Shown here: one piece after another, positions 1,379 to 58,970 of the stretch | Position numbering within the stretch: the stretch's first letter is position 1 | Layout: every line of letters begins with the position of its first letter | Assembly: GCA_015178975.1 (NCBI GenBank) | Contig: WHVD01000055.1 | Location: 372,001 to 436,000 of the forward strand | Length of the DNA stretch: 64,000 nt | Direction of reading: 5' to 3' | Source of the DNA: Hysterangium stoloniferum | Lineage: Eukaryota > Basidiomycota > Agaricomycetes > Hysterangiales > Hysterangiaceae | Notes under the pieces: model-generated | Seen by the model: the letters and a program-made list of their open reading frames with translations, nothing else | Database searches by the model: none | What the model was told of the DNA's origin: nothing | Translations under genes and position numbers: made by a program

Positions 1379-1861
1379 TCCACCATCATCTTGCTGCATG
1401 GACATCGATAGACGAGCCAGCAGGGAAACCTGCTACCTCGCAGCACGACCTAGATCAGCTTAGGTGATCGTTGATCTCGGGTTAAAGCCTCTACCTCCTG
1501 ACAGGTGTACCGCCCAACCGTATACTACCCACCATTGGGTCTCAAGATTCTTGGAATTTCGTTGCGCGCAAAGTCGGCACGAATTCATTATCTTATCACT
1601 CCCTTTGGACCAGGCTCAGTAGTAGACTCCTAAACAGTAACTCTGGAAGGACGAAACGGTAGGGGTAGCGGTATCCCCCTGATGAGAGCTTTCGTCGGCT
1701 CGAAACCGTTACAGTCCGTTTCTCCTAGCCACCCTCTACTCTAGCTGACAAAGTTCAATCTTCGGAGACAACTGATTGCGACGATTGATAAGGTGGTGGT
1801 CTGCCCAGCGGCGCTCTGGTGGACGCTGGTGACCATGCGTTGCTATGGTCACCTTGCTAAT
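1379..1861. mobile_element. 483-bp insertion rich in RNA hairpins, carrying a hammerhead ribozyme
   Basis: Boundaries come from comparing the kinase relic with its paralogues at 9820-9870 and 26810-26860. Joining base 1378 to 1862 restores their contiguous sequence (ACAAACCAAG). The insert has no coding potential I can see. It contains perfect short hairpins: AGCAGG-GAAA-CCTGCT at 1419-1434 (GNRA loop) and GGTGACCAT/ATGGTCACC at 1828-1853. It also holds the hammerhead motif at 1655-1710. No clear target-site duplication flanks it; a 10-base near-repeat (TCATCTTGCT/TCACCTTGCT) lies just inside the two ends. It could be a solo LTR of a retrozyme, a cDNA copy of a viroid-like circular RNA, or another noncoding element. 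The identity is open; the insertion itself is well supported. Confidence 0.6.
1655..1710 (+). ncRNA. Type III hammerhead ribozyme
   Basis: All core elements are present in order. Stem III 5' strand AACGGT (1655-1660) is followed by A1661, forming the GUA cleavage triplet. Stem I is GGGG (1662-1665) with CCCC (1675-1678) and a 9-nt loop. CTGATGA lies at 1679-1685. Stem II is GAGC (1686-1689) with GCTC (1698-1701), then GAA (1702-1704). Stem III 3' strand ACCGTT (1705-1710) pairs with 1655-1660 (six pairs). Open stem III makes it type III. The expected cut is 3' of A1661. Type III hammerheads are known from plant viroid-like RNAs and retrozymes and from fungal viroid-like or viral circular RNAs. 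The strand is opposite to the interrupted kinase. Activity is not shown. Confidence 0.85.
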
Positions 1862-3432: not shown

Positions 3433-4972
3433 CTAAGAGTCGAAAATAGCCCCGTACGCCGCAATTCCTCGTGTTTGCATGCCATAAACGACCTTCTTCG
3501 TTAATTTGGGGTTTGAAATAATAAATACTGCTTCCGCCTGGGCTTCCACCACCAACTTGTAAGTTATCGCGACCATATCAGGTCTCCCCTGAGTCCTCGT
3601 ATTCCAAATGACCGCTTGTGGATCAGCTTTCAGGACAGCATTCATGATCTTTGGGCCGTACGTCTTCTCGGGGTTAGGAGTTGACCAGAGGATGCGGCGT
3701 GGAGTAATATCGGCGTACATCAAAGATAGGCAAGGTCCAATACCCGATCCCGTTGCCACAACTATTATTTTCTTGAACAGCTTCGACGTGTAAAGAAGGC
3801 CATGCAGTGGATAACCGCGAATCCAAAGTTTCTTGGGAGGCTCGCTGATAACCTTTCGCGTCCAATCACCAGCGCTGGACACGACGATGGAAAAGCCCCC
3901 GTCCTCGTTCGGGATGGTTGCGAATGCGTGCCATTCCAACAGGGGCTTATCGGATACTTTGAGGCCGTAGAATGGTGGCATATTTTTGTATTTGAAGTGT
4001 AGACGAATGGCATGATCTGAAAGGATTTCGGGGTAGACATCCCGTCTACGAAGCCGCGACCATGAAAGCAATGTGCAACAGGTGGAGATGCACAATGTCC
4101 AGAAATTGGGACTGGTGACGAGATATCGACCTAATGATGGGGGATTCGCCTCTAGCACTCTGTACTGATGTCCAGCGAAAATGGTGTGGATCCAAAATGT
4201 AGTCAGGGCCGTCCATCCAGCATAACGGTGAATAGCTTCGAAATAGTCGTGGAACAGCACGCGGAAGCGGGGATACGCTGAGGCGAGGATGAAGCAGAAC
4301 ATCGTAACGAGGACGTATGAGGTAGCAAGATTGGCCGTAGCAGCTGGGCTACGGTTGTGGAGGAAATCCCTTGTAATGGCAGCGGTATACATGATATACC
4401 AAACAACAGCAGCCGTCCCAGCACCACTGTGAGCGCCTCCATAATGGAATGCCTTGGCGAGGCGCCGACGAATGGAGAGGGGGAGGGAATGTGGAACGCA
4501 ACACAGGATCTCATACACGAGGTTGACGAAATTCTCCTGTCTGAACAGAATGGCAACCATGAGATTAGCGGACGCAGCGCTACCGATTTGAGGGGCCGGT
4601 GGTGCTCCTTTGTTCTTCACCACAAAAGCGATAAACGCAGCGAGGTTTGCGAAGAATATGACGGTGAATATTTTGCGGTACGTCGACAAAAAGTTATCTT
4701 TTAAAAAGTCCATTAGTAAAACTAACAGTTGATATGGTCGAGAGATGCTCACGTTTTAGGTAGCGGGTTACTTTGGTACCCTCCTTGTCGGGAACAACGT
4801 TTGGGTCAACGCCATTGAAAAGTTCAGGCTGTGACGATTCCTTCTCGTCTGGCTCCTTCAGACTATCATTTGACGAGTTCCCGCTGGTGCCTGTCTCGGA
4901 CTCGAGGGCTACTAGGGCATGAGGCTCAACCGCGCTTTTTTCGACATCCTCGTAGGGAAGTGTGGGGAGCAT
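3433..4972 (-). CDS. TmpA-like multi-pass membrane flavin/NAD(P)H oxidoreductase, copy 1
   Basis: Exon 1 is 4972-4753 and exon 2 is 4697-3433, joined over a 55-nt intron with donor GTGAGC, branch site TACTAAT and acceptor AAAAG; the product is 494 aa. The first in-frame ATG (4972) is conserved in the paralogue. Residues 1-75 are acidic and low in hydrophobicity (cytosolic tail). Predicted membrane helices lie near 83-100, 166-180, 196-215, 232-249 and 271-286, with His-bearing segments HYGGAH and HRYAGW. The C-terminal half resembles a ferredoxin-reductase-like module: LEWHAFATIP near 317-326 (flavin side) and VVATGSGIGP at 366-375 (NAD(P) loop). Such proteins are typified by Aspergillus TmpA, a membrane oxidoreductase affecting conidiation. 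Substrate is unknown. About 97% identical over exon 2 to the gene at 43496-45038. Confidence 0.82.
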
Positions 4973-9779: not shown

Positions 9780-11163
9780 TATACTCGCGTTAAACCAATT
9801 AAAATCAATTGGTTAGTCTGAACAGTAGCGTACAAGGAAAGAGCGACAAACCAAGACATTCATCCCAAATGGACACGCATCGACTTCATTGTTAACATCC
9901 CCGTGGTGAAATAATTCTAGTCCCATCCAGCGTAGTGAGCCTCAGGCTATGGGGCCGGCAGATGTCAATATCCCCGCTGAATTGGTAATCATTTTTAAAA
10001 GACCTAAACCATTCGGCTTTGGGATCCCCGTGTCGCTAACTGAGACGTTTCCCTGTAACATCATGTTATTTACACTAGAAAACAAAAATTTATTTATTTT
10101 ATACAGTACCGCTCGGATATCTCCATGCTCCACACCTGGCTTCCAATCATGAAAGTGAGACAAGCCCTTCACGATTTCGATTAGCTATCACAATGAATTA
10201 ATTATGAAGCCACTGATTGGCCTCTGGATTGGTTTTGATATATGTGAGAGCTGTGCCCTGAGACATCAACGGAGATAGTAACGAAGGGACGCTGTGTGCT
10301 GCGGGGGCACCGAAATCATAACAAAATCAAAGAATACTCCGAAACGCCTCCATGACCAAATTTCGACCATACGAGATCCTCCTCCCAGATCCTACTTGTC
10401 ATAAACGTTAATGATGATTTAATAAATAATACAAGAAATCACAAATGGGCGTCTTTGAGAAGTTCACTCCATTGAATACGCATGCCATGACTAGCGAAGC
10501 CTCTTGGCAGCCTTTATAGCAACTTTCTTCTTCCTAGAAATTCCGGTCCATACGTCTGAATAACCGCCGGATGCCACTAGATACTCGCTGACGGTTGGAG
10601 ATTTGACCGTTAAGGCAAGAAGAGGAGTTTGTGTTAAATGGATCGACATCAAAGGAGAAGTCGTTACATCCTGAAAGCACTTTTTCCTTGCTGGTAAGAA
10701 TCAGTTGGGGACACACCACCTTCTGAGCTTGGAAACACCATGTTCTTCCCATGTTCACGTTTGCACCGATGTAACCGCACCAGCCAGATCACTTACAAAT
10801 TGTCGGAAACGGCTGCATTCCAAGTGAACGACATCGGAGAGGAGACCAACTAAATACATGTCCAACCTATCCGTGGCTCAGGTTCAGTTCTATAAACGCT
10901 CTTTGCAGCCGTAGCATAGGAATCCCAGGAAGCTCCAGAAAATCTCAGTACAGACCTCTCTAAGGATGCCGTTGAATATATTTATAAGGAGCCAAGATAA
11001 GTCGAGGGGGTGCATTGAGAAAGCTTTATATCCAAGACGAGTGTGGTGTTGTGGGGATTCTCCACGACGAATGGCCTCCGGGTAGCGATTCGCACGGCTC
11101 CATAGAACCTATGTTTTTGAATGGGGGAATATTACACTCACGAAACAACTCGCCGTTGTAATA
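9780..11163 (-). pseudogene. Kinase pseudogene, subtype A
   Basis: Runs leftward from a 5' leader (11163-10850) through N-lobe sequence near 10500-10560 (Gly-rich loop, VAIK region), the catalytic loop HGDIRA near 10100, and SDTGIPK. The magnesium-binding motif reads NGLG instead of DFG, a stop precedes GSLRWM, and several frame changes occur. The terminal exon is missing. Subtype A is recognised by WTGISGKKKVAIK and the GNVSVSDTG exon. The 5' leader ends at 11163 where it meets a kinase of opposite orientation. Confidence 0.7.
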
Positions 11164-11756: not shown

Positions 11757-12830
11757 TGGAAAACAAAAAATTGCCTTTTATACATTACCGCTCGGATATC
11801 TTCATGCTCCACACCCGGATTCCAAACATGCAAGTAACACAAGCTCTTCGCGATTTCGATTAGCTATCACAATGAATTATCAAGCCCAAAACAACGACAT
11901 TGTCTCACCAGTGCCTACCGATTGGCGTCTGGATTGGCTTTGATATACGGGAGAGCTGTGCCCTGAGACATTAACGGAGATAGTAACGAAGGGACGCTGT
12001 GTGCTGCGTGGGCACCGAAATCATAATAAAATCAAAGAACACTCCGAAACGCCTCCACGACCAAAATTCGACCATACCGAGATCCTCCTCCCAAGATCCT
12101 ACTTGTCACAAACGTTAATGATGGTTCAATAAATAATACAAGAAATCACAAAAGGGAGCCTTGAAGAAGTTCACTCTGTTGAATACGCATGCCATGACTA
12201 GCGAAGCCTCTGGTAGCCTTTATAGCAACTTTCTTCTTCCCAGAAATTCCGGTCCATACGTGTGAATAACCGCCGGATGCCACTAGATACTCGCTGACGG
12301 TCGGAGATTTGACCATTGAGGCAAGAAGAGGAGTTTGTGTTAAATAAATCAACATCAAACGAGAAGTGGTTGCATCCTGACAGCACAGCACCTTTTCTTC
12401 GTTGGTAAGAATCAGTTTGGGACACAACACACCACCTTCTGAGCTTGGAAACGCCATGTTCTTCCCATGTTCGCGTTTGCACCGATGTAACCGCACGAGC
12501 CAGATCACTTGAGCACAAACTGTCAAGAAACGGCTGCATTCCAAGTGAACGACATTGGAGAGGAGACCAACTAAATATATGTCCAACCTATCCATGGCTC
12601 AGGTTCGGTTCTATAAACGTTCTTTGCAGCCCGTACCATAGTAATCCCAGGAAGCTCCAGAAAATCTCAGTATAGACCTCTCTAAGGATGCCGTTGAATA
12701 TATTTATAAGGAGCCAAGGAAAGTTGAAGGGGGTGCATTGAAAAAGCTTTATATTCAAGACGAGTGTGGTGCTGTGGGGATTCTCCACGACGAATGGCCT
12801 CCGGGTAGAGATTCGCACGGCTCCATCGAA
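11700..12830 (-). pseudogene. Kinase pseudogene, subtype A
   Basis: From the palindrome rightward, read on the minus strand: catalytic-loop exon, N-lobe exon at 12146-12310 (EYLVASGGYSHVWTGISGKK, then VAIKATRGFASHGMRI), N-terminal exons at 12310-12600 and a 5' leader to 12830. The DFG, APE and terminal exons are missing because the copy is cut at the palindrome. The N-lobe exon itself is open. Confidence 0.7.
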
Positions 12831-13999
12831 CCAATGAGGGTAATGAGGACCCGCTTAGTTTCTAGTAGCAGTCGGATCTTAGTACGAGGTCATAGTGCTG
12901 TTCAGCGGGTCAGGGTAGGTTGGTATGCATCCCAGCTGCTGGTATCTCTGTACAGTATGTCATCGTGCCACTTATTCATAGGCGACGAGAATTTAGAACT
13001 GCAGGGTGAGTGGATGTGGGAGTGGGAGTGATTAGCTTCGTCTTCTCGAGGATATATAATATATGAGTACAAAACGCTGGACGAAACGCAAGAACAAAGT
13101 GCAAGACAAAGTGCAAGAACAAAAAGCAAGACAGAGCAAGATAAAGAGCAAGAGCAAAAAGCAAGACAACCACCAAAACAAGGCGTGATTAAGGACAACG
13201 CGCGAGACAAAGCGCGAGAACAAGGCACGAGATAAAGTGCAAGACAAAGCTCAAGCAAGACACTTATTCCATTAGCCTTTTGGCGGTCCTAGTCCAATGT
13301 GGTAAGCTTTCAAAAATTCTCAGTCAAATGAGCACCAAAAAATGTCAACGCCTATATAGAATCTTTGACAAAATCGTGATATTTCAACTTAGCTTGACCA
13401 TGGAAACTGGGATAGGCTCAACCGGTCCACTGCCACTACTGAAAGCGCAGCCAGGGTGTATAAATTGACCACTTCATATTTGATGGGCACAGTCACGAAA
13501 AATTGGTGCCAAGCTTAGCAACGATTCTCAGAATGTCTTGTAACGCTCCGGTAGCTCGATGAAAGTATTGTGACCACCATCACTATTTTAAGATGATTGA
13601 CTCGACCGTAATTCTCCCAAAACACTCACCGGGAAAAGCCCTTGTTCCAAAAGTTTTTATGATCCTTAGTAGAGGCTTAAGCAAGTTTAACTCGGTTAAG
13701 GATCCAACATGTGATTGGCGGGTTTAGAATTCAACGAACTTTTGAAATAACCGAGTTAAAATCGGTCAAGGATCTAATATGTGATTGCAGGGTTTCGAAT
13801 TCAACGAACTTTTGGATCCTCAAAAGATCCCTTATCAATTTAACTCTTTTAACGATTCAATGGATAATTGTTGGAGGTTATATAAAATAAGGCTCTACTA
13901 AGGATCCTGAATTTTTTTGGAGAGGTGGTTATCCGGTGTCTTAAGTTATGAATCGAGGCTTGATCAAACTTTAAAAATACTGTAGCCGAATGGTAACTA
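12110..13999. repeat. Left arm of a large inverted repeat
   Basis: Matches 15263-17050 in reverse complement, with a few indels (for example about 130 bp missing near 12835). The inner edge is sharp: the sequence GGTAACTA at 13999 meets its complement at 15263. The arms hold kinase subtype A, a minisatellite and about 740 bp of AT-rich DNA. A third, direct copy lies at about 33760-35568. Confidence 0.75.
13080..13260. repeat. Minisatellite, CAAGACAAAGTG-type units
   Basis: Degenerate 10-14 bp units (GCAAGACAAAGT, GCAAGAACAAAG) in tandem. The complementary strand is open in all frames as Leu/Cys/Ser/Phe-rich nonsense, typical of a simple repeat rather than a gene. Related arrays are at 16020-16210 and 34625-34810. 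Confidence 0.75.
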
Positions 14000-14179
14000 T
14001 AAGCACCCTGAACTAGTGGAGTTCCTCGTATTTGCCCGAATCACGCTTCTCGTACCGGAGAGTTGGATTTTAAGACCATTGTGAAGCTTTTGGCTTTAAT
14101 AAGCTAGGAATGTGAAAGGTGATGTTTATATTGTCGTCTATTCATCATGGGACATCGTATTAACTTGCACCATTCCTCC

Positions 14180-14370
14180 CATCCCAGGCTCTTTAGCCTG
14201 GGCCCCAAAGCAACTGGTTCGGTCTTGTTGTGAGTGAAGGAAGCTGGTTTGCAACCCTTTAAGCCGCGGGAATGCAAAGCTTTGAACCTGGGGTTGGAAA
14301 GACTATTTTTGGGACAATCAGTCTCGGCATTGGGCTAGTTTCGAACCATATAAAATACTTTGGTGACTAA
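14180..14370 (+). pseudogene. ISG12-domain relic
   Basis: Reads NWFGLVVSEGSWFATL, stop, AAGM, then GKTIFGTISLGIGLV, aligning with FFGAVVEKGSWFSLLQQAGM and GKAIVPAVGIIG of the gene at 1-686. Broken by stops. A second copy is at 35740-35940. Confidence 0.6.
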
Positions 14371-14544
14371 TAGTATAGATCATTGACGTGGCTCAAATGG
14401 GGTCATTATAATTTTACAGGTATACTAGATACGCATATGTAAAGTTGGCTCGATACCCTATCGAGTTGCGCATATCGTGTATAAAGACGATTGAGCGGTT
14501 GGTGTTCGGTAGGAGATGACAAGATGATGATGCTGGGGAGTTGG

Positions 14545-14670
14545 TGACTCAATAGCTTTGGTTTTAAACGTTTGCTTAATGCTTTATACTAGTTGCGGTG
14601 CAACATGGCGAGGTCCTTTTGGACAAATGTTTCCCCATATACGAAATCGCTGGAGCACAGTCTACACTTA
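14545..14670 (+). pseudogene. SUR7/PalI last-exon relic
   Basis: Matches exon 4 of the gene at 29664-30454 from VLNV to the C-terminal VYTY and its stop codon. About 20 bases of the exon start are missing. No other exon is present. Confidence 0.65.
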
Positions 14671-15262
14671 CTAAGCATTTTTAGTGATTGAACTACGCCA
14701 ATCGAATAACGGTTTGATCCAACGGGCTGTAATATATGTTCAAGTGTATTATTTGAAGGACTTCATTCACCTAAACAGAAGCCTCGCTGCAAACTGCTCG
14801 GATTGATGCGTTCAGCAATTCATCGAGTTCACTCAACATGCTCAACTTTCGTTGTGAATATTGCGCATTTACATTCATGTCATTTATTATGGCATTATGG
14901 CCTATAGAATTATTTATTTAGGTTGTGGCTCATTAACATTTCGGCTACGGTACTTAAATGCTTGTTGGTATTTACGCCTACATCCATGATATTAGTTGCA
15001 AATATTCTCTATTATGTCACACAAATCCGTCACGTTTACAAAAAAAAGTGCACACCAATTTCACGTTTTCCACATTCTGGAGGTTCCACTCGGCTCCGCC
15101 CATTTTTTCACAACTTTGATTCTGTGGCCTATCAATTCTCAAGTAGTCAATTTGCAATTTGTTCCACTTTGCCCGCGCTTTGAATACTGACAGTGAACCG
15201 GTTGCATTATTTTTCAAACACCGACAGTGTTTGCACTCACCTAACGTCAAGCTAACCACGAT

Positions 15263-17050
15263 TAGTTACCATTCGGCTACAGTATTTTTAAAGTTTGATC
15301 AAGCCTGGATTCATATCTTTAAAACACCGGGATAATCCCCTCTCCAAAAAGATTCAGGATCCTTAGCAGGGCCTTATTTTATAACCTCCAACAATAATCC
15401 ATTGAATCGTTATAAGAGTTAAAATTGATAAGGGATCTCTTGAGGATCCAAAAGTTCGTTGAATTCGAAATCCTGCAATCACATATTAGATCCTTGACCG
15501 ATTTTAACTCGGTTATTTCAAAAGCTCGTTGAATTCTAAACCCGCCAATCACATGTTGGATCCTTAACCGAGTTAAACTTGCTTAAGGATCCGATGACTG
15601 ATTGGTGGAGTTTATATAACATAAGCCTCTACTAAGAGTCCTAAAAATTTTTGGAACAAGGGCTTTTCCCAGTGAGAGTTTTGGGAGAATTACGTTCGAG
15701 TCAATCATCTTAAAATAGTGATGGTGGTCAGAATACTTTGATCAAGCTACCGGAACGTTACAAGACAGTCTGAGAATCGTTGCTAAGCTTGGCACCAATT
15801 TTTCGTGTCTGTGCCGATCAAATATGAAGTGGTCAATTTATACACCCTGGCTGCGCTTTCAGTAGTGGCAGTGGACCGATTGAGCCTATCCCAGTTTCCA
15901 TGGTCAAACTAAGTTAAAATATCACGATTTTGTCAAAGATTCTATATGCTCATTTAACTGGGAATTTTTGAAAGCTTACCACCTAGGACCGCCAAAAGGC
16001 TAATCGAATAAGTGTCTTGCTTGAGCTTTGTCTTTCACTTTATCTCGTGCCTTGTTCTCGCGCTTTGTCTCGCGCATGGTTCTTAATCACGCCTTGTTTT
16101 GGTGGTTGTCTTGCTTTTTGCTCTTGCTCTTTATCTTGCTCTGTCTTGCTTTTTGTTCTTGCACTTTGTCTTGCACTTTGTTCTTGCGTTTTGTCTGGCG
16201 TTTTGTACTCATATCTTATATATCCTCGAGAAGACGAAGCTAATCACTCCCACTCCCACATCCACTCAGCCTGTAGTTCCAAATTCTCGTCGCCTATGAA
16301 TAAGTCGCACGATGACACACTGTACAGCGATACCAGCAGCTGGGATGCATACTAACCTACTCTGACCTGCTCAACAGCACTATGAAGTCGTACTAAGATC
16401 CGACTGCTACTAGAAACTAAGCGGATCCTCATTACCCTCATTTCTGTCCTCTTGGAGTCCGGAATGGCTTGTTTGAGGAATTTCTTTTCCACCTAGTCCC
16501 TGTGTTACTTGGCCACTTCCGGACGTTCTCATACGGCGAGATGCTTCGCGAGTATGACATTCCCCCATTCAAAGACATAGGTTCTATGGAGCCGTGCGAA
16601 TCTCTACCCGGAGGCCATTCGTCGTGGAGAATCCCCATAACACCACACTCATCTTGAATATAAAGCTTTCTCAATGCACCCCTCGACTTATCTTGGCTCC
16701 TTATAAATATATTCAACGGCATCCTTAGAGAGGTCTGTACTGAGATTTTCTGGAGCTTCCTGGGATTCCTATGCTACTGGCTGCAAAGAACATTTATAGA
16801 ACCGAACCTGAGCCACGGATAGGTTGGACATGTATTTAGTTGGTCACCTCTCCAAAGTCGTTCACTTGGAATGCAGCCGTTTCTGACAGTTTGTGCTCAA
16901 GTGATCTGGCTCGTGTGGTTACATCGGTGCAAACGCGAACATGGGAAGAACATGGCGTTTCCAAGCTCAGAAGGTGGTGTGTCCCAAACTGATTCTTACC
17001 AACGAAGAAAAAGTGCTTTCAGGATGCAACCACTTCTGGTGTCATGTCGA
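15263..17050. repeat. Right arm of the large inverted repeat
   Basis: Reverse complement of 12110-13999. It is also the outer end of a larger inverted duplication: 15263-20133 corresponds in reverse to 29709-35568. Confidence 0.75.
16020..16210. repeat. Minisatellite, inverted copy
   Basis: Tandem CTTGTCTTGCACTTTG-type units, the complement of the array at 13080-13260. Frames read through it are repetitive Leu/Cys/Ser strings and are not regarded as genes. Confidence 0.75.
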
Positions 17051-17470
17051 TCCATTTAACACAAACACCTCTTGAAGTAATCCTTGCCAACCAGTTTAAA
17101 GTCCTTTAGGGAACGAAAAGCAAGACCAAGAAATTTCAGGGAGCAACCTCGGTGCAGAACCGTTTGGCACAAGTTCCTCTTCTTGCCTCAACGGTCAAAT
17201 CTCTGGTGTCAGCGAGTATCTAGTGGCATCCGGCGGTTATTCAGACGTATGGACTGGCCTTTGGGGGCGGAAAAAAGTCGCCATAAAGGTTGCTAGAGGT
17301 TTTTCGAGTGATGGCTTGCGTATTGAACGGAGTGAACTTCTCAAGGTGCCCTTTTGTGATCTCCTATGTTTATACATTAAATCACCGACCCTTTTTATTA
17401 GCGGATCGGGAATGAATATCTCATATGGTCAAATCTACGCCACGAGAATGTCTTGGAAATGTTTTGCAGG
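16430..17470 (+). pseudogene. Mosaic kinase pseudogene (A then B)
   Basis: The 5' leader and N-terminal exons (16430-17060) are subtype A. At about 17060-17085 the sequence switches to subtype B, repeating part of the N-terminal exon (ANQFKVL, then GNEKQDQEISGSNL in frame). The B N-lobe exon ends SELLK at 17345 and the next exon is cut at about 17458. There it abuts another B copy in opposite orientation. No catalytic loop, so inactive. Confidence 0.7.
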
Positions 17471-17900
17471 ACCACCGAAATCGTAAGAAAATCCAAGACA
17501 TTCCAAGACATTCTCGTGGCGTAGATTTGACCATATGAGATATTCAGTCCCGATCCGCTAATAAAAAAGGTCAGTGATTTAATATATAAACATAGGAGAT
17601 CACAAAAGGGCACCTTAAGAAGTTCACTCTTTTCAATACGCCTACCATGACTAGAAAAACCTCTAGCAACCTTTATGGCAACTTTCTTCTGCCCCCAAAG
17701 GCCGGTCCATACGTCTGAATAACCGCCGGATGCCACCTGATACTCGCTGACACCAGAGATTTGACCGTTGAGGCAAGAAGAGGAACTTGTGTCAAACGGT
17801 TCTGCACCGAGGTTGCTCCCTGAAATTTCTTGGTCTTGCTTTTCGTTCCCGAAAGGACTTTAAACTGGTTGGCAAGGATTATTTTGGGACACAATACCTG
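17060..17900. repeat. Palindromic kinase junction
   Basis: About 400-base arms of kinase subtype B face each other with the centre near 17459-17500. In the related junction at 32.3-33.4 kb about 1 kb lies between the same points, so this centre seems to have been deleted. Confidence 0.75.
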
Positions 17901-21599: not shown

Positions 21600-23060
21600 G
21601 ATATTCATCCCAAATGCCCAGACATCCTTTTCTTGCTGATATTTTCGCCGTGCAAAAGTTCTGGTGCCATCCAGCGTAATGAGCCCTCAGGGCCAGCAAT
21701 CATTGATATCCCTGTTGAATCGCTAGTGGCTCTTGAAAGACAAAAGTCATTCAGTTTGGGTATCCCCGTATCACTTATTAAGATGTTGCCCTAACATCAT
21801 GCTATGTACAATAGAAAACAAGCATTTATTTTTATCAGTACCGCTCGGATATCTCCGTGCACTACAGCTGGCTCCCGGTTATGCAAGTAACACAATCCTT
21901 TTGCGATCCCGATTAGCTATTACAATGAATGAGTAGCACAACACAAAACAATGGCCTTGTCTCGCCAGTCCCAACTGATCAGCATCTGGATTGGCTTGGA
22001 TATACGTAATAACTGTGCCCTGCGACATCCACGGAGATATCAATGAAGGAACTCTATGTTCTGCGAAGCCACCGAAATCGTAAGAAAATCCAAGACATTC
22101 CAAGACATTCTCGTGGCGTAGATTTGACCATATGAGATATTCATTCTGGATCCGCTAATAAAAAGGGTGAGTGATTTAATATATAAACATAGGAGATCAC
22201 AAAAGGGCACCTTAAGAAGTTCACTCTGTTCAATACGCAAGCCATGACTAGAAAAACCTCTGGCAACCTTTATGGCGACTCTCTTCTGCCCCCAAAGGCT
22301 GGTCCATACGTCTGAATAACCGCCGGATGCCACTAGGTACTCGCTGACACCGGAGATCGTTGAGGCAAGAAGAGGAACTTGTGCCAAATGGTTCTGCACC
22401 GAGATTGCTCCCTGAAATCTCTTGGTCTTGCTTGTCGTTCCCTGAAGGACTTTAACTCGTTGGCAAGGATTATTTCGGGACACACAATATCTGCTGGGAG
22501 CTTGGAAACACCATGTTCTTCCCATCTTCGCGTTCACACTGATGTAACCGCACTGGCCAGATTACTTGGGCACAAACTGTTGAAAATGGCTGGATTGCAT
22601 GTGAGCGACATTGGAGACCAACTAAATACATGTCCAACCTATCGGTGGCTCAAGCTCCATTCTATGGAGGCTCTTTGCGGCCGTAGCATGGGAATCCCAG
22701 GAAACCTCCTGAAAATCTCCGCACAGACATCTCTAACGATACTGGTCAATATATTTATAGGGAGCCATGATAGGTTGAAAGGCTCTGTTGAAAAAACTTT
22801 ATCTTGAAGAAGAGTGTGGTGTTGTAGAGATTCTCCACGACGGAGAACTTCCCAGTAGAGAGATTCACACAGGACCATGAAATCGACGTTTTGGAATGGG
22901 GGAGTATCATACTCCTGAAGCATCTCGCCGTATGAGCACGTCCACTAGGCGGAGAAGAAATTCCTCAAAGAAGCCATTCTGGACTCCAAGAGGACAGAAA
23001 TGGTGGTAATGAGGATCCGCTTGGTCGCTAGTAGCAGTCAGATCTTGGGGCGAGTCCATA
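21600..23060 (-). pseudogene. Kinase pseudogene, subtype B
   Basis: Minus strand: 5' leader (23060-22600), N-lobe exon (VSEYLVASGGYSDVW, KRVAIKVARGF), substrate-side exon, catalytic-loop exon and activation segment (NDFCLSRATS). Lesions: a 7-base deletion before the Gly-loop (near 22355) shifts the frame, and DFG has become DFC. The terminal exon is missing because the copy ends at the inverted junction. Splice sites are otherwise kept. Confidence 0.72.
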
Positions 23061-26534: not shown

Positions 26535-27887
26535 TTACTGATTGATAACGTTGAGACTTTTGGGTTGTCCCAGACCAATCAGTCTGATCAACACTTCCTG
26601 TGTGTCGAGTCGCTCCACCGGATTAAGGCGCCAACATTGAAGACAAATCTCCCAAAGATCGTCCGTCATAATAGCGCTGGCAGTTGGGCGCCGAGGGATG
26701 TGGCCATCGAAAATTTCTTTTAGCACTACAGGTTCCAACTTGATATATTCGTATGGTATGCAACCAGTCCCTACTTCCTATATCACGTTAAAATTAATCG
26801 ACAGGTTCGAGCAGTAGTGTACAAAGAAAGAGCCACAAACCAAGATATTCATCCCAAATGCCCAGACATCGCTGGTCTTGCTGATATTTTCGCCGTGCAA
26901 GAGTTCTGGTGCCATCCAGCGTAATGAGCCCTCAGGGCCATCAGACGTTGATACCCCTGTTGAATCGCCAGTGGATCTTGAAAGACCAAAGTCGTTCAAT
27001 TTGGGTATCCCCGTATGGCTTATTACGACGTTGCCCTAACATCATGTTATTTACAATAGAAAACAAGCATTTATTTTTATCAGTACCGCTCGGATATCTC
27101 CGTGCACTACAGCTGGCTCCCGGCTATGCAAGTAACACAACCCTTTTGCGATCCCAATTAGCTATTACAATGAATGAGTAACAAAACACAAAACAATGGC
27201 CTTGTCTCACCAGTCCCAACCGATCGGCATCTGGATTGGCTTGGATATACGTAATAACTGTGCCCTGCGACATCCATGGAGATACCAATGAAGGAACTCT
27301 ATGTTCTGCGGGGCCACCAAAATCGTAAGAAAATCCAAGACATTCCAAGACATTCTCATGGCGTAGATTTGACCATATGAGATATTCAGTCCCGATCCGC
27401 TAATAAAAGCGTCGGTGATTTAATATATAAACATAAAAGATCACAAAGGGCACCTTAAGAAGTTCACTCTTTTCAATACGCCTACCATGACTAGAAAAAC
27501 CTCTAGCAACCTTTATTGCAACTTTCTTCTGCCCCCAAAGGCCGGTCCATACATCTGAATAACCGCCGGTTGCCACCTGATACTTGCTGACACCGGAGAT
27601 TTGACCGTTGAGGCAAGAAGAGGAACTTGTGCCAAATAGTTCTGCACCGAGGTTGCTCCTTGAAATTTCTTGGTCTTGCTTTTTGTTCCCTGAAGGACTT
27701 TAAACTGGTTGGCAAGGATCATTTCGGGACAAACAATACCTGCTGGGAGCTTGGAAACACTGTGTTCTTCCCATCTTCGCGTTCTCATTGATGTAACCGC
27801 ACTGGCCAGATCACTTGGGCAGAAGCTGTTGAAAATGGCTGTATTGCATTTGAGGGACTTTGGAGTCGGATCTTGGGAGGAGTTCAT
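26535..27887 (-). CDS. TKL-like protein kinase, subtype B, spliceable to a full open frame
   Basis: Exons 27887-27740, 27689-27454, 27399-27211, 27161-27087, 27035-26841 and 26777-26535 join in phase to 361 residues; all introns are GT-AG, 49-63 nt. Motifs: Gly-loop ATGGYSDVW (89-97), VAIK Lys109, possible helix-C Glu133, catalytic loop HGDIRAGN (211-218, HGD in place of HRD), DFG (231-233), MAPE (257-260), DVWAFG (Asp272) and a C-terminal WRLNPVERL region. All catalytic residues are present, so an active kinase is plausible; substrate is unknown. The first 15 or so residues (MNSSQDPTPKSL) come from DNA fused upstream by a deletion: other copies have a further 400-600 bp of leader here. This is the only copy in the window with every kinase exon and no frame lesion. 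Expression is unproven. Confidence 0.78.
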
Positions 27888-34479: not shown

Positions 34480-36106
34480 GCATCCCAGCTGCTGGTATCG
34501 CTGTACCGTGTGTCATCGTGCGACTTATTCATAGGCGACGAGAATTTGGAACTACAGGCTGAGTGGATGTGGTTGTGGGAGTGATTAGCTTCGTCTTCTC
34601 GAGGATATATAAGATATGAGTACAAAACGCCAGACAAAACGCAAGAACAAAGTGCAAGACAAAGTGCAAGAACAAAAAGCAAGACAGAGCAAGATAAAGA
34701 GCAAGAGCAAAAAGCAAGACAACCACCAAAACAAGGCGTGATTAAGAACCATGCGCGAGACAAAGCGCGAGAACAAGGCACGAGATAAAGTGAAAGACAA
34801 AGCTCAAGCAAGACACTTATTCGATTAGTCTTTTGGCGGTTTTAGGTGGTAAGCTTTCAAAAATTCCCAGTCAAATGAACATATAGAATCTTTGACAAAA
34901 TCGTGATATTTTAACTTAGTTTGACCATGGAAACTGGGATAGGCTCAACCGGTCCACTGCCACTACTGAAAGCGCAGCCAGGGTGTATAAATTGACCACT
35001 TCATATTTGATCGGCACAGACACGAAAAATTGGTGCCAAGCTTAGCAACGATTCTCAGACTGTCTTGTGACGTTCCGGTAGCTCGATCAAAGTATTCTGA
35101 CCACCATCACTATTTTAAGATGATTGACTCGAACGTAATTCTCCCAAAACTCTCACCGGGAAAAGCCCTTGTTCCAAAAATTTTTAGGACCCTTAGTAGA
35201 GGCTTATGTTATATAAACTCCACCAATCAGTCATCGGATCCTTAAGCAAGTTTAACTCGGTTAAGGATCCAACATGTGATTGGCGGGTTTAGAATTCAAC
35301 AAGCTTTTGAAATAACCGAGTTAAAATCGGTCAAGGATCTAATATGTGATTGCAGGTTTCGAATTCAACGAACTTTTGGATCCTCAAAAGATCCCTTATC
35401 AATTTTAACTCTTATAACGATTCAATGGATTATTGTTGGAGGTTATATAAAATAAGGCTCTACTAAGGATCCGGAATTTTTTTGGAGAAGGGGGTTATCC
35501 CGGTGTCTTAAAAGATATGAATCTAGGCTTGATCAAACTTTAAAAATACTGTAGCCGAATGGTAACTATAAGCACCCTGAACTAGTGGAGTTCCTCGTTT
35601 TTGCCCGAAACGCTTCTCGTACCGGAGAGTTGGATTTTAAGACCATTGTGAAGCTTTTGGCTTTAGTAAGCTAGGAATGTGAAAGGTGATGTTTATATTG
35701 TCGTCTATTCATCATGGGACATCGTATTAACTTGCACCATTCCTCCCATCCCAGGCTCTTTAGCCTGGGCCCCAAAGCAACTGGTCCGGTGTTGTTGTGA
35801 GTGAAGGAAGCTGGTTTGCAACCCTTTAAGCTGCGGGAATGCAAAGCTTTGAACCTGGGGTTGGAAAGACTATTTTTGGGGACAATCAGTCTCGGCATTG
35901 GGCTAGTTTCGAACCATATAAAATACTTGGGTGACTAATAGTATAGATCATTGACGTGGCTCAAATGGGGTCATTATAATTTTACAGGTATACTAGATAC
36001 GCATATGTGAAGTTGGCTCGATACCCTATCGAGTTGCGCATATCGTGTATAAAGACGATTGAGCGGTGAGTGGTGGTAGGAGATGACAAGATGATGATGC
36101 TGGGGA
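34480..36106. repeat. Third copy of the palindrome arm plus part of its spacer
   Basis: Direct copy of 12880-14540 (minisatellite at 34625-34810, AT-rich DNA, and 540 bp of the 14 kb spacer). Similarity stops at 36106/14540. Embedded ISG12 relic at 35740-35940. Confidence 0.75.
35740..35940 (+). pseudogene. ISG12-domain relic
   Basis: Almost the same as the relic at 14180-14370, carried along in the duplicated block; stops in the domain. Confidence 0.55.
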
Positions 36107-43495: not shown

Positions 43496-45038
43496 CTAAG
43501 AGTCGAAAATAGCCCCGTACGCCGCAATTCCTCGTGTCTGCATCCCATAAACAACCTTCTTCGTTACTTTAGGGTTTGAAATAATAAATACTGCTTCCGC
43601 CTGTGCTTCCACCACCAACTTGTAAGTCATTGCAACCATGTCAGGTCGCCCCTGAGTCCTCGTATTCCAAATGACCGCTTGTGGATCAGCTTTCAGGACG
43701 GCATTCATGATCTTGGGGCCGTACGTCTTCTCGGGGTTGGGGGTTGACCAGAGGACACGACGTGGCGTGATATCGGCATACATCAAAGATAAACAAGGCC
43801 CGATACCTGATCCCGTCGCCACAACTATTATTTTCTTGAACAGCGTTGACGTGTAAAGCAGGCCATGCAGTGGATAACCGCGAATCCAAAGTTTCTTGGG
43901 AGGCTCGCTGATAACCTTTCGCGTCCAATCACCAGCGCTGGACACGACGATGGAAAAGCCCCCGTCCTCGTTCGGGATGGTTGCGAATGCGTGCCATTCT
44001 AACAGGGGCTTATCGGATACTTTGAGGCCGTAGAATGGGGGCATGTTTTTGTATTTGAAGTGTAGACGGATGGCATGATCCGAAAGAATTTCGGGGTAGA
44101 CATCCCGTCTACGAAGCCGTGACCATGAAAGCAATGTGCAACAAGTGGAAATGCACAACGTCCAGAAATTGGGACTGGTGACGAGATATCGACCCAATGA
44201 TGGGGGATTCGCCTCTAGCACTCTGTACTGATTTCCAGCGAAAATGGTGTGAATCCAAAATGTAGTCAGGGCCGTCCATCCAGCATACCGGTGAGTAGCT
44301 TCGAAATAGTCGTGGAACAGCACGCGGAAGCGGGGATACGCTGAGGCGAGGATAAAGCAGAACATCGTAACGAGGACGTATGAGGTAGCAAGATTGGCCG
44401 TAGCAGCTGGGCTACGGTCATGGAGGAAATCCCTTGTGACGGCAGCGGTATACATGATATACCAAACAACAGCAGCCGTCCCAGCACCACTGTGAGCGCC
44501 TCCATAATGGAATGCCTTGGCGAGGCGCCGACGAATGGAGAGGGGGAGGGAATGTGGAACGCAACACAGGATCTCATACACGATATTGACGAAATTCTCC
44601 TGTCTGAACAGAATTGCAACCATGAGATTAGCGGACGCAGCGCTACCGATTTGAGGGGCCTGTGGTGCTCCGTTGTTTTTCACCACAAAAGCGATAAACG
44701 CGGCAAGGTTTGAGAAGAATATGACGGTGAATATTTTGCGGTATGTTGAGAAAAAGTTGTCTGTAATAAAGACCATTAGTAAAACTAACAATTGATACGG
44801 TCGAGAGATGCTCACGTTTTAGGTAGCGGGTCACTTTAGTACCCTCCTTTCCAGGAACAACGTTTGGGTCAACGCCATTGAAAAGCTCAGGCTGTGACGA
44901 TTCCTTCTCATCTGGGTCCTTTAGACTACCATTCGACGGCGAGTTGTCGCCAGTGCCTGTATCAGACTCGAGGACTGCTGCGGCATTAGACTCAGCCGCA
45001 CGTTTCTCGACATCGTCGTAGGGGAGTGTAGGGAGCAT
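43496..45038 (-). CDS. TmpA-like multi-pass membrane flavin/NAD(P)H oxidoreductase, copy 2
   Basis: Exons 45038-44816 and 44760-43496, separated by a 55-nt intron identical in layout to copy 1 (GTGAGC, TACTAAT, TTACAG), giving 495 aa. Over the membrane and reductase parts it differs from copy 1 at only about a dozen residues, nearly all conservative (for example A/S, I/V, K/T). Residues 8-45 of the acidic tail are much more divergent. The NAD(P) loop VVATGSGIGP and all predicted helices are kept. Both copies appear functional. It points toward the SDR gene, 1.7 kb downstream. Confidence 0.82.
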
Positions 45039-53672: not shown

Positions 53673-53744
53673 GGTCGGATGGTGTAGTGGTTAACACCTT
53701 TGTTATGTAATCAAGAGATCCTGGGTTCAATCCCCAGTCTGGCT
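53673..53744 (+). tRNA. tRNA or tRNA-like gene, anticodon TGT (Thr) by position, aberrant anticodon loop
   Basis: 72 nt. The acceptor stem (GGTCGGA/TCTGGCT) pairs 7/7 with three wobbles, the D stem is GTGT/ACAC, the variable loop is five bases, and the T stem CTGGG/CCCAG has loop TTCAATC. A-box TGGTGTAGTGG and B-box GGTTCAATCC are present. The anticodon stem has one mismatch and a wobble, and base 33 is A instead of the universal T, so the TGT call is uncertain. It may be a decayed tRNA or the head of a tRNA-derived SINE. No CCA is encoded, as usual in eukaryotes. Confidence 0.65.
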
Positions 53745-54323
53745 ATTCATTTTCTACATTACTTATGTTCTCTAACATCTTAGGCATCAAAGGGAAAGGA
53801 AAGAAAAGGTAATAACAGTAAAAGTGAATAATAAATTTATCACAAAGGTCTGGTAAATTCAAGAACTAGTGAAAACACTTTGAAAACACCCTGGTAAGGA
53901 TTAATTGAGGGAGAACTTGTTAAGCTTGAGGCTTATGGGTAGGGTCTGGTGGAGAACCTGTGGATAGTCCAGTGTACAGGTAGGGCTTGGCTTCAGCTTA
54001 TATGCTACACCCTTCTGAGATCATTGTGTCCAATTTTGAATGGGATGAATGGAAGGTCTAGGGAGTCTGAGAGGATGAAGGGATGGTGAGTGGGAGGTAG
54101 GTGGGATGGGAAGTCCAAAGCCCAGGAAGATGAGGAATAGCAAGGATGACTGAAGTCAGGGGGAAAGTCCAAGATGAAACAGGGACATACAGACATACAC
54201 ATGGAACATAATAAACTAACTGACAACCAGGTTTCAAAGCTGATCAGGGTGGATATTGCATATATCCTGAGAGCTGGGATCTCTGGGTGGGGTCAGGTCA
54301 CTGACTTGTATGAGAAGGGAGTG
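53745..54323. other. LTR-derived fragments, no gene
   Basis: Bases 53983-54060 carry the LTR-conserved block (GGGCTTGGCTTCAGCTTATA, then CCAATTTTGAATGGG). The rest is purine-rich and unassigned. Confidence 0.45.
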
Positions 54324-55340: not shown

Positions 55341-56350
55341 ATGAAAATGAGTCCAAATGTAACATGGGGTCCACAGAGTGCGGTCAGAGAGACGATAGTG
55401 GTCCAGGTTTGAGTGGGTAAGCTGTATGAAAGTCAGTAACGATTTCCGTGGCATTACCGAGTTCTGTGGCCAAAATCCATGAGGTTTCTTCATTGGTGCC
55501 CTCATAACCTGCCCACTTGACCAAGTAAAGCAGTTTACAAGTGCATCGATGCTTGTCAATTTTCGAATCTAAAATTTGCGAGATTTCAAACTTGGGTTCT
55601 CCATCAATAATGACCAGAGGAGGCAGAGATTGCACATGATCTGGGATAGTGTTAGCAGTACAAGGTTCTAACATAGAAACATGAAATACCGGGTGTACCG
55701 CACACATGCTATCCGGAAGTTGTAGGGTCCAAGAGACTAAACCTACTTGTGCGATAATTTCAAAAGGACCTAAATATTTTTCAGCAAGCTTTTTTGATGG
55801 ATGGGTAGTCCAGAAGAATTGAGCTTTGACAAAAACATGATCGCCAATCTTGAAGTTGGGTGGTGGGATCCAGTGTTTGTCCACTGAATGTTGATATTGC
55901 TCTTGGGCAGACTTTATTGCAGTCCGGAGTTCCTCGTGGAGCTTGTGGAGGTCCGTGGTGAACTCTTGAGTGCGAGCAGAGGCGAGATTTTGTTCTGGAT
56001 GTACTGTAATATTTGGATTACATATATCCTTTATTTGCAAAGAATGGGGAAACACCAGTAGTGGCCAAAGGTGCATTGTTGTAAGCAAATTCTGCAAGTG
56101 GTAGCAAGGATTTCCAATTGTCCTGTTGGTAATTGCAATATACACAGAGATATTGTTCCAATGTCTGATTGACACATTCGGTTTGTTTGTTGCCTTTCGG
56201 GTGATGTCCAGACGTGAAATGTAATTTCATGTCCAAGGATTTCCCGAGGGATCTAAAGAAGTGAGATACGAACTCTGATCCTCGGTCAGAAGTTATGTGG
56301 GATGGAACTCCGTGCTTGGAAAATACGTGGATAATAAAAAGTTCTGCTAA

Positions 56351-56951
56351 GGAGGATAATCACACTTTATTGAATATACAAAACTTTACTGAATAATCCT
56401 CATATTTTCTAAGTGAGCCTATTCCTTCTGGTCATGACAACTTATTCTATGAGTTTATATTTAATTACCTGAAATTTCATCTTTAAAATATGCATGCCTT
56501 TTTAAAATACATACAAATGACATAGTTACACAAGACTATTTGGATTAACCTAGATTATTTGGGTTAACCTAGATTATTTGGGCTAACCTAGAGCATTTGG
56601 GTTAAACAAGATTATTTGGGTTATGACTTAATCTTTGGGTTGTAATGTATTCTCTTTGTATACAAGCAAACTTTCAAATATATTTCATATAATTTAAATT
56701 TAGTTAGTTTAGAGAGTTAACCAGAACTATCTGGGGTACCAATCCCCATTGTGCAATTTATTCCAAAAGAATAATCTACAGATGATTGTTTGACTAAATT
56801 TTGTCAGATATAGGATAAATATTGATATTTTTGCATTCTTCAGAGTGATACCTAATCAACTGAATTTGATTAAATATTAATTTTACAACAAACAATATAA
56901 ATATATATACTTTAGTGGATAAATAATTTTTAAAGTTTTGGGTTATCCTCC
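56351..56951. mobile_element. 601-bp non-autonomous DNA transposon (MITE) in the integrase
   Basis: Terminal inverted repeats GGAGGATAAT / GTTATCCTCC and a TAA target duplication (56348-56350 and 56952-56954). Removing the element with one TAA restores the integrase reading ...TSMQL-AELFIIHVFSKHG. AT-rich and noncoding. About five tandem copies of a 19-bp unit (GATTATTTGGGTTAACCTA) lie at 56540-56634. TIR and 3-bp target fit PIF/Harbinger-type MITEs. Confidence 0.88.
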
Positions 56952-57454
56952 TAACTGCATGGATGTAATTGTATCATAAGTAGGGATGAATATACCTTGT
57001 TTTGAGAATCTGTCAACAACGACTAGAATGGTGGAAAAGCCTTCAGAATCTGGTAGGTGTTCAATGAAATCCATAGAGATAGAATTCCACGGATGTTCCA
57101 GTACCAGGAGTTGTTTCAAAAGGCCGTATGGCTTGTGTTGCTGAGATTTCGAGTGGGGACAAGTAGTGCAAGATTTACAATAGTGCTTAATGAATCCACG
57201 GAGTCCAGGCCAAGTATATTCTCTTCTTATTAATGATAGAGTTTTGTTGTACATAAAATGTCCTGAGAGTAGATGATCATGTTTGTATTGAAGGATCCTG
57301 AGGCAGAGGCCATTGGAATCCGGTACATAGATCTGATCGTCAAGTCTAATGAACCCATGCTGATCAAGAGACCACCGGGGTTGATCGGGGTCCACGGGAT
57401 TGTCTAGGTGAGCTTTAGTTATCGGGTCTAGTGGAATTGCCGATAGAATATCTT

Positions 57455-58129
57455 GGAGGATATCTGAAAACTATTAAGTATACCAAATTCTAATATACTC
57501 TAAAGATCATTTAAATATCTGGAATGTGATTCAAACATAATTTGGTTTTTAAAACTTTCAAAAAGTTTTAAACTCTCTCATACATTACAAACTAAAGAAT
57601 CTTTCCGGACATGAGTAGACAATAAAATAAATTAGTAGTTTGAAACACTAATACTTTTAAAAAATAGATACCTTTAAATAGTCCATTCCATGCATATGTA
57701 TATCATTGGCACCTCTAAATACATATGTATTACTTTGGAATGGATCTGTCAATCTGAACAGATTTCTACTTGATTCAACATACCCAGAACATATAGGTAA
57801 TTTCACTTAATAAAGAAGGCCATAGGATGAAAAATTTCCAATGACATCTCATATATTTTACTAGGAAATAACTACAGTTTAGTTTTTAAAAAACAAATTA
57901 ACAACAAAAGTATTAGCAAGTATTTACATAAATTGGAAAACTATATACAACAGGTTCTATTAATTGATTCTGAATTGTTTAGGATGTAATATGGTGAATT
58001 GTTTCTTATGATTGGTGGTTAACAATATAATACTCTCAGAGGATATGTCACTATTTAAAGATGGATTTTTGTAGCAATTTTGCTTTTATTAGTAAACATT
58101 TGATATTATAATGATTACAGACAACCTCC
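57455..58129. mobile_element. 675-bp non-autonomous DNA transposon (MITE) upstream of the integrase
   Basis: Terminal inverted repeats GGAGGATATCTGAAAAC / reverse GGAGGTTGTCTGTAATC and a 3-bp duplication CTT (57452-57454 and 58130-58132). Excising it gives a continuous pol frame LHQ-DILSAIPLDP. AT-rich, noncoding. Shares GGAGG ends and 3-bp target with the element at 56351-56951; internal sequence differs. Confidence 0.82.
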
Positions 58130-58970
58130 CTTGATGTAACTTCTCAATATCCATAATAATAATTCTACGGACAATGGGATTGATGAGGAAAGTTGTGCAG
58201 ACTGATGCAGTAAGTTGTTGATTTGTGAAAATAGGTTTCAGGTTGTGCAGGTTTACCGTGGCATAGTTGTTGCTCCCCTCTTTAGGATAGACGTCCCATT
58301 GTCTAGTTAAAGTGTCAGGTTTGCCGCCAAGACGGCCGGGTCAAAAATGGATAATCATGTTGAAAGCAGATAGATATTCAGACCTGCGGGCCTGCCGATG
58401 GGTCAAAAGGTTTGTGGTAGAAAAGTATTCCAGGTTTTTGTGATCTGTTACAATGTCAATCGGAGTTCCCGAGCCTTCCAAATAGTGTCGCCACGCTTTG
58501 AAAGCTGAAAAGATTGCCAGGAGTTCCTTATCATAAATGTTGTAGTTGAGCTCTGCTCTGGTAAAAATCCGGGACAGGAAAGCCACAGGTGGACTTCTCT
58601 GTCAGAGTCCTGGATAGACAGAATGGCTCCAAGTGCATAATCCGAGGCGTCCGTTTTGACAATGAGCGGGAAGTCCAGTTTCCAATGCAACAGAATAGGA
58701 GCTGAGGAAAAACAATTTTTTAAAAGATTGAAAGCTTTTTGACACTTATCATTAAAATTCCATGGAGTATCCTTACATCTAAGATGGGTAAGGGGTACCG
58801 TGATGTCGGAATATCTGCAGATAAACCGTCTGTAAAAATTGGCAAAGCTGAGGAAGGATTGTACATCTTTAACTTTTCGGGATTCGGGCCAAATTTTGAT
58901 GACTTGCACTTTAGTTTTGTCCATGCGGAGTCTGATGGGGGTAATAAAGAAGAAGAAATTTTATTTTTTC

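Follow-up and report, generated by a model that had tools for sequence, protein, structure and literature searches.

What is a self-cleaving RNA motif doing in the nuclear DNA of a basidiomycete? An initial annotation had read a complete type III hammerhead ribozyme inside a mobile-looking insert, and had suggested that it may mark an undescribed class of ribozyme-bearing element or a captured viroid-like RNA. Here, we analyzed this locus in its window (the whole stretch of 64,000 nucleotides, C496:372001-436000) and across the 111.1-Mb assembly of 554 contigs. The assignment to fungal nuclear DNA is supported: one of the proteins encoded in the window matches a Hysterangium stoloniferum protein with 100% identity across 97% of the query, making this Agaricomycete almost certainly the source.

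The window contains a complete type III hammerhead

Direct reading of the plus strand bore out the hammerhead base for base at 1655-1710. Each part of the conserved core that had been named, i.e., CUGAUGA, GAA, the A-U closing pair and the GUA triplet, was read in the sequence, and the three stems pair as described: stem III AACGGU/ACCGUU (6 bp), stem I GGGG/CCCC and stem II GAGC(U)/(G)GCUC. The arrangement is that of type III, with CUGANGA...GAAA, U16.1–A15.1, an H17 that is not G, and three helices open at stem III. The features of the ribozyme are as follows.

1655..1710, plus strand: type III hammerhead ribozyme; cleavage predicted at A1661/G1662 (RF00008, strict scan, conservation)
1655..1660, plus strand: stem III 5' strand AACGGU, partner ACCGUU at 1705-1710, 6 bp including U16.1–A15.1 (sequence, pair counts)
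1659-1661, plus strand: cleavage triplet GUA (sequence)
1662..1678, plus strand: stem I and loop I, GGGG 1662-1665 / CCCC 1675-1678 (sequence, RF00008)
1679..1685, plus strand: catalytic core CUGAUGA (sequence, low core substitution rate)
1686..1701, plus strand: stem II and loop II, GAGC(U) 1686-1690 / (G)GCUC 1697-1701 (pattern searches)
1702..1705, plus strand: GAAA core, G12 A13 A14 A15.1, with GAA at 1702-1704 and A15.1 at 1705 (sequence, RF00008)
1649..1717, plus strand: outer stem III extension, GGAC 1649-1652 / GUCC 1714-1717 (minimum free energy (MFE) fold)

A strict motif rule, combining the core, the triplet and stems of at least 4, 3 and 3 pairs, found exactly one site in the window when both strands were scanned, and none in 60 first-order Markov random windows (120 strands). 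The covariance search that the initial annotation had proposed did return RF00008 at 1654-1711 (plus strand; 30.2 bits, E = 0.0016, 4227 Rfam families against 5 kb), but the score lies below the gathering score of 48.5 bits, which is why the hammerhead is absent from the default Rfam scan of the 64 kb. Across the whole 111-Mb genome, RF00008 gave no match at E ≤ 1e-3. Copies elsewhere scored similarly low: 28.2–31.9 bits in three copies of a shorter subfamily (L092–L094, see below) and 28.1–30.3 bits in four of eight further loci scanned, with no match at E ≤ 0.1 in the other four (L038, L051, L057 and L058).

The ribozyme lies within a dispersed non-coding element

The insert was rightly called mobile-looking: the ribozyme sits within a dispersed, precisely inserted element, for which paralogous empty sites exist even in the window. 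A DNA search with 1560-1800 gave at least 40 matches (best 40 of 181 candidates scored), and most of the 30 loci fetched from it have in common a sharp-ended block of ~483 bp (1379-1861). The element is thus 481–483 bp long (1379-1859/1861) and non-coding; the AT at 1860-1861 may be either its last two bases or part of the junction. In five loci (L026, L027, L030, L007 and L020), it is truncated, split or shortened. The extent of the element and its terminal features in the window are listed below.

1379..1859, plus strand: non-coding mobile element, A-long subfamily, 5' TCCACC..., 3' ...GCTA (shared block, alignments, empty sites)
1379..1385, plus strand: TCCACCA at the 5' terminus, one arm of the asymmetric terminal inverted repeat (sequence; conserved in a 29-copy alignment)
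1817..1823, plus strand: subterminal TGGTGGA, inverted partner of the 5' end (sequence, pairing)
1828..1853, plus strand: 3' terminal hairpin GGTGACCAT-N8-ATGGTCACC, followed by TTGCTA (inner pairs kept in 25–29 of 29 copies)
9780..10034, plus strand: paralogous empty site without the element and without target duplication (78% identity to the element flanks when joined)
26789..27011, plus strand: another paralogous empty site of the window (75% identity)

A 29-nt ribozyme pattern allowing up to 2 mismatches occurs at 152 genomic places, as against 0 for the reversed control; 5 of the 30 loci fetched from this search belong to a separate repeat family (family B) rather than to the main element. 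The looser pattern CTGATGAG-N4..25-CGAAAC occurs at 108 places genome-wide versus 2 for the control. Among the 79 such strings listed, 5 have unrelated spacers and are chance-like, while 6 have a loop II that is 3 nt shorter and retain stem II. Ribozyme variants with this shorter loop II lie at C90:7331, C196:7568, C235:781778, C342:3634, C442:572744 and C474:9684.

A second, shorter subfamily (L092–L094) of ~423 bp is without one segment of the 5' half. In a search with it, all 40 scored rows were full-length (best 40 of 194 candidates, query included), matching query positions 1-423, or 1-426 in two rows, which places the 3' end at GCTA. Since the long-type and short-type searches (40 matches each) overlap by eye at 5 places, at least 75 sites are documented, and the genome probably holds well over a hundred copies.

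Several other features were noticed in the window, the reading frames and the mirroring of the arrays by eye. Two near-identical membrane protein frames resembling TmpA/NRPS12 (3433-4755 and 43496-44818, minus strand), whose relatives carry PF26733, lie 40 kb apart and are a local duplication. Arrays of 12/25/35-bp and 70-bp tandem repeats occupy 13088-16206 and 34622-34803, and parts of them look mirrored (inverted), e.g., 13684-13814 and 15449-15579. Repeated short frames resembling protein kinase fragments are found at 12146-12598, 17398-17859 and 22040-22561 (minus strand). Pieces resembling a Ty3-type retrotransposon, with integrase- and RT-like frames, lie at 55384-58960 (minus strand), near a tRNA gene at 53673-53745.

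The element inserts without target-site duplication

Four occupied copies match element-free paralogues at 73–85% identity, with no target-site duplication (TSD): the window copy (versus 9780-10034 and 26789-27011), L011 (versus L059), L021 (versus L028 and L055) and L067 (versus L012). These empty sites are paralogues, not alleles, and their junctions vary by 0–2 nt. In the flanks of 42 full-length copies (43 with L090, which was left out), no offset carried a direct repeat of 4 bp or more in more than 2 copies. In a set of 45 flank pairs, the longest direct repeats were close to those of re-paired flanks, with repeats of at least 5 bp in 4 pairs versus 1.82 expected. The 6-bp direct repeat flanking L094 compares with 0.48 such repeats per set of re-paired flanks.

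The 3' terminal hairpin comprises 9 bp, and no clear hairpin is present at the very 5' terminus. The 3' copy of the 7-nt TCCACCA/TGGTGGA inverted repeat lies 36 nt from the element end. The element ends in CTA, as opposed to the strict CTRR of canonical Helitrons (Helitron1); the next base is A in 32 of 42 copies and T in 10 of 42, and the base 5' of the element is A in only 14 of 42. A short interspersed nuclear element (SINE) was considered and rejected, as by eye there is no tail, no TSD is consistent and no tRNA-like Rfam match falls at the element.

The ribozyme is strongly conserved among the copies

We compared substitution frequencies within the element in 42 copies, a set that differs from the 42 copies of the flank analysis and was found via whole-element or central similarity. 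The non-CpG substitution frequency was 0.0079 in the core (a 13-position mask including GAAA, U16.1 and H17), 0.0171 in the ribozyme stems and loops, and 0.0487 outside. Because the query spans 1560-1800 and the 29-nt pattern overlaps the ribozyme, the copies favor the center of the element; the least biased set is one of 13 rows (whole-element hits plus L001). The 56-nt ribozyme span substitutes less than all 316 shifted spans in the 42-row and 29-row alignments and less than 313 of 316 in the 13-row alignment, and so ranks first in two of the three alignments. The core mask was equaled by 12 of 347, 8 of 347 and 0 of 346 shifts in the 42-, 29- and 13-row alignments, respectively. Among the alignments used, A1 comprises 12 of 56 distinct segments and A2 the 29 chosen copies.

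Between subfamilies, the long and short consensus sequences differ at 45 of 365 positions outside the ribozyme and at 2 of its 56 positions: H17, where A is replaced by C, and one in loop II. Hammerheads tolerate both changes; the long and intermediate consensus sequences differ at 32 of 482 positions, none within the ribozyme. We infer that selection underlies this conservation.

Strictly intact ribozymes were found in 17 of 30 loci from the 1560-1800 search, 15 of 30 from the 29-nt pattern search, 20 of 30 from the whole-element search and 3 of 4 later fragments. The 35 distinct intact sites carry the triplets GUA (27), GUC (5) and GUU (3). By eye, loss of the ribozyme is partly due to CpG transitions.

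An otherwise unrelated repeat family shares the ribozyme block

Family B (L035, L041, L046, L050 and L057) is a repeat family separate from the main element. L041 has in common with the element only the ribozyme block, equivalent to 1657-1712, and L057 shares this block plus ~50 nt. At C246, a piece that aligns separately is 56 nt long and nearly coextensive with the ribozyme. The family B ribozymes differ in detail: three of five copies have a GUC triplet, stem III shows G-C or G-U where the window has A-U, and L046 and L057 carry a stem I mismatch and do not pass the strict rule. L052, considered as a third ribozyme context, proved to be a shortened copy of the main element and was rejected.

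The family B ribozyme is located in a variable internal region with tandem repeats, which in some members are 96- and 30-bp units. In one frame of L057, a WD40 match falls below the cut-off, and the family appears as a mosaic repeat with a weak WD40-like fragment. By eye, two stretches of ~2.7 kb (C112:1884791-1887466 and C64:114612-117290) do not match the segment of ribozyme and tandem repeats.

Competing structures are predicted for the ribozyme RNA

Folding energies were computed without loop–loop contacts and without co-transcriptional folding, and on these terms, the hammerhead is less stable than the MFE structure by 2.4 kcal/mol in window RNAs of 60 and 71 nt. The MFE alternative pairs CUGAUGAG with UUCGUCGG. 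In a comparison by the same script with the outer helix excluded, the bare hammerhead of L092 (short subfamily, 71 nt) lies 11.0 kcal/mol above the MFE versus 9.0 for the window. In longer transcripts of the element, other structures are favored and the predicted probability of stem III is ~0; the whole element is strongly structured (z = −3.29).

Considered by itself, the ribozyme shows weak covariation (2 pairs; 37 of 500 shuffles). In an alternative helix formed by 1649-1659 with 1717-1727, one pair has changed on both sides in 13 of 29 copies, which looks like a single subfamily split. This helix of ~10 bp, in which the one pair is a G-C/A-U exchange, would occupy the 5' strand of stem III and could act as a switch.

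The element is Helitron-like and the genome has many Helitron_like_N matches

Like Helitrons in general, the element inserts without TSD, as seen in the four occupied copies and in the 42 and 45 flank pairs. Its comparison with canonical Helitron1 is mixed: a 5' TC and a 3' hairpin are present, but the neighboring bases do not follow the A/T insertion rule. We therefore name it Helitron-like, not a proven Helitron. Passages of PMC5148889 describe fungal Helitron2 as having no TSD, hairpins, and asymmetric terminal inverted repeats 20–40 bp from the 3' end. The element here is like fungal Helitrons and Helitron2 in the lack of a TSD, in the asymmetric inverted repeat and in a hairpin that is clear at the 3' end only, and is also like the fungal Helitrons of those passages in the 5' TC of one group and the existence of short non-autonomous derivatives. 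It differs from fungal Helitrons in not matching the Helitron insertion-site preference and in its ribozyme, as PMC full-text searches, judged by titles and abstract openings, found none described within Helitrons.

As with fungal Helitrons, Helitron_like_N genes are present in the element's own genome: PF14214 has at least 151 genome matches (150 of 342 candidates scored), with open frames of up to 1923 codons among the matches listed. Many of these matches lie in long open frames, an appearance of a recent, large Helitron expansion in this genome. The 3' terminal 14-mer of the element occurs at 43 places, 38 of which by eye are already among the copies found; none of the 43, as candidates for an autonomous partner, lies within 20 kb of the PF14214 matches listed. 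IS200/605-type mobilization was considered and rejected on the ground that PF01797 (Y1 TnpA) has no match genome-wide, while 5 of 14 control genomes were positive.

Discussion

Based on these data, we consider it likely that the locus holds a genuine type III hammerhead in a small, non-coding, non-autonomous element of Helitron-like character, which spread without TSD and whose ribozyme is under selection. We propose the following scenario. Two subfamilies (~481–483 and 423 bp) would have spread in the Hysterangium stoloniferum genome leaving no TSD. The most economical mechanism would be rolling-circle transposition: Helitron proteins of the host genome would supply the activity in trans, working on termini (TCC...GCTA) that carry a 3' hairpin and an asymmetric inverted repeat. 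The plus sense transcript is predicted to fold into stems III, I and II and to cut itself after 1661, with 2',3'-cyclic phosphate and 5'-OH termini as products. The ribozyme would then probably process the RNA of the element or read-through RNA of the host, cutting it free or destroying it, and selection might keep the ribozyme because cutting this RNA helps the element or spares the host. More tentatively, a Helitron-type DNA transposon lineage may have recruited a self-cleaving hammerhead, which selection would maintain as part of the transposon's life cycle.

The ribozyme might instead be a passenger: the element would have captured an ancestral hammerhead, e.g., that of a retroelement, and copied it along, perhaps still able to cut but with no role for the element. 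Such a history would fit the loss of the fold in many copies, the folding of long transcripts, which disfavors the hammerhead, and the variable tandem-repeat setting of the ribozyme in family B. We nevertheless regard it as unlikely, given that in two of the three alignments no other 56-nt stretch of the element is as well conserved as the ribozyme, that the consensus differences between subfamilies avoid its core and stems, and that the ribozyme forms a discrete block common to two otherwise unrelated repeat families.

Hammerheads in interspersed repeats are not in themselves new. The initial annotation had called a fungal genomic copy in such an insert unusual; the association of this ribozyme with this element is indeed unusual, but hammerheads in fungal repeats have already been reported, since passages of Perreault et al. 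2011 (PMC3088659) describe repeat-associated hammerheads in Yarrowia lipolytica as well as in animals. According to the same passages, type I accounts for the vast majority of such hammerheads in eukaryotes. The element described here resembles these repeats in having its hammerhead within an interspersed repeat, and differs in being type III, in a basidiomycete, and in having its ends and empty sites described. A PMC full-text search, judged by titles and abstract openings, found no comparable element.

Retrozymes are retroelements (passages of PMC4918200 and PMC7761336), whose cleavage step is tied to RNA circles and to reverse transcription; the plant elements have two LTRs with a hammerhead each and 4-bp TSDs (Cervera et al. 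2016, PMC4918200). The element is similar to them, as far as those passages go, in being a small, non-autonomous, non-coding hammerhead element with tens of copies or more. It differs in having one ribozyme rather than two, no LTRs seen, no 4-bp TSD and a fungal host. A retrozyme-like life cycle is quite improbable. In it, the RNA would be cut, circularized and copied by reverse transcription, with LTR-retrotransposon machinery integrating the DNA copies. Plant retrozyme hammerheads are of type III, as is this one, and a non-coding, strongly structured element would suit such a cycle. Nonetheless, the window copy has no LTR-like direct repeats (none ≥ 14 nt), none of the ~3-kb loci fetched showed tandem units, and no TSD is consistent. 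Moreover, the element has fixed ends, which in the window copy lie 283 nt upstream and 198 nt downstream of the cut site, and therefore a circle cut by the ribozyme would not regenerate them. A retrozyme of the plant type was rejected on the lack of internal long repeats and of a consistent TSD. Penelope-like elements and Terminons are further hammerhead-bearing retroelements (passages of PMC6431247); here, too, the hammerhead belongs to a mobile element, but in those groups the ribozyme is in terminal repeats or near 3' ends, whereas here it is internal in a TSD-less element.

It is highly improbable that the block owes its conservation to another structure, the CUGAUGAG/UUCGUCGG hairpin, with its likeness to a hammerhead incidental. 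This hairpin does appear in the MFE fold and, by eye, is made stronger in the short subfamily by a C at 1691. However, the 6 listed strings with the short loop II by eye keep stem II and lose part of the hairpin; GAAA, stem I and stem III, which lie outside the hairpin, are conserved too, apart from CpG sites; and the strict motif is absent from random sequence. Least probable is an integrated viroid-like RNA or ambivirus fragment: ribozyme-bearing viroid-like RNAs and ambiviruses are reported in fungi, yet the motif occurs on one strand of the window only, the transposon-like ends are fixed and unrelated to the cut site, dozens of full-length copies have common ends and no head-to-tail units appear in the ~3-kb loci, so the suggestion of a captured viroid-like RNA, and with it that of an ambivirus, was rejected. 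An exact 28-mer ribozyme pattern had no match in viral_contigs or genome_contigs, a negative of little weight, as neither is a fungal genome collection.

The reading that we prefer, a selected hammerhead in a Helitron-like element, bears on what repeat-borne hammerheads do for their carriers, a long-open question. If the ribozyme cuts, the known home of type III hammerheads would be widened to a basidiomycete genome, and the function of repeat-borne hammerheads could be tested in a setting where retrotransposition is not the explanation. If recruitment by a Helitron lineage is true as well, the element would represent a class of ribozyme-bearing elements that are not retroelements and in which a DNA transposon makes use of RNA self-cleavage, for example by cutting the transcripts of the element or read-through transcripts.
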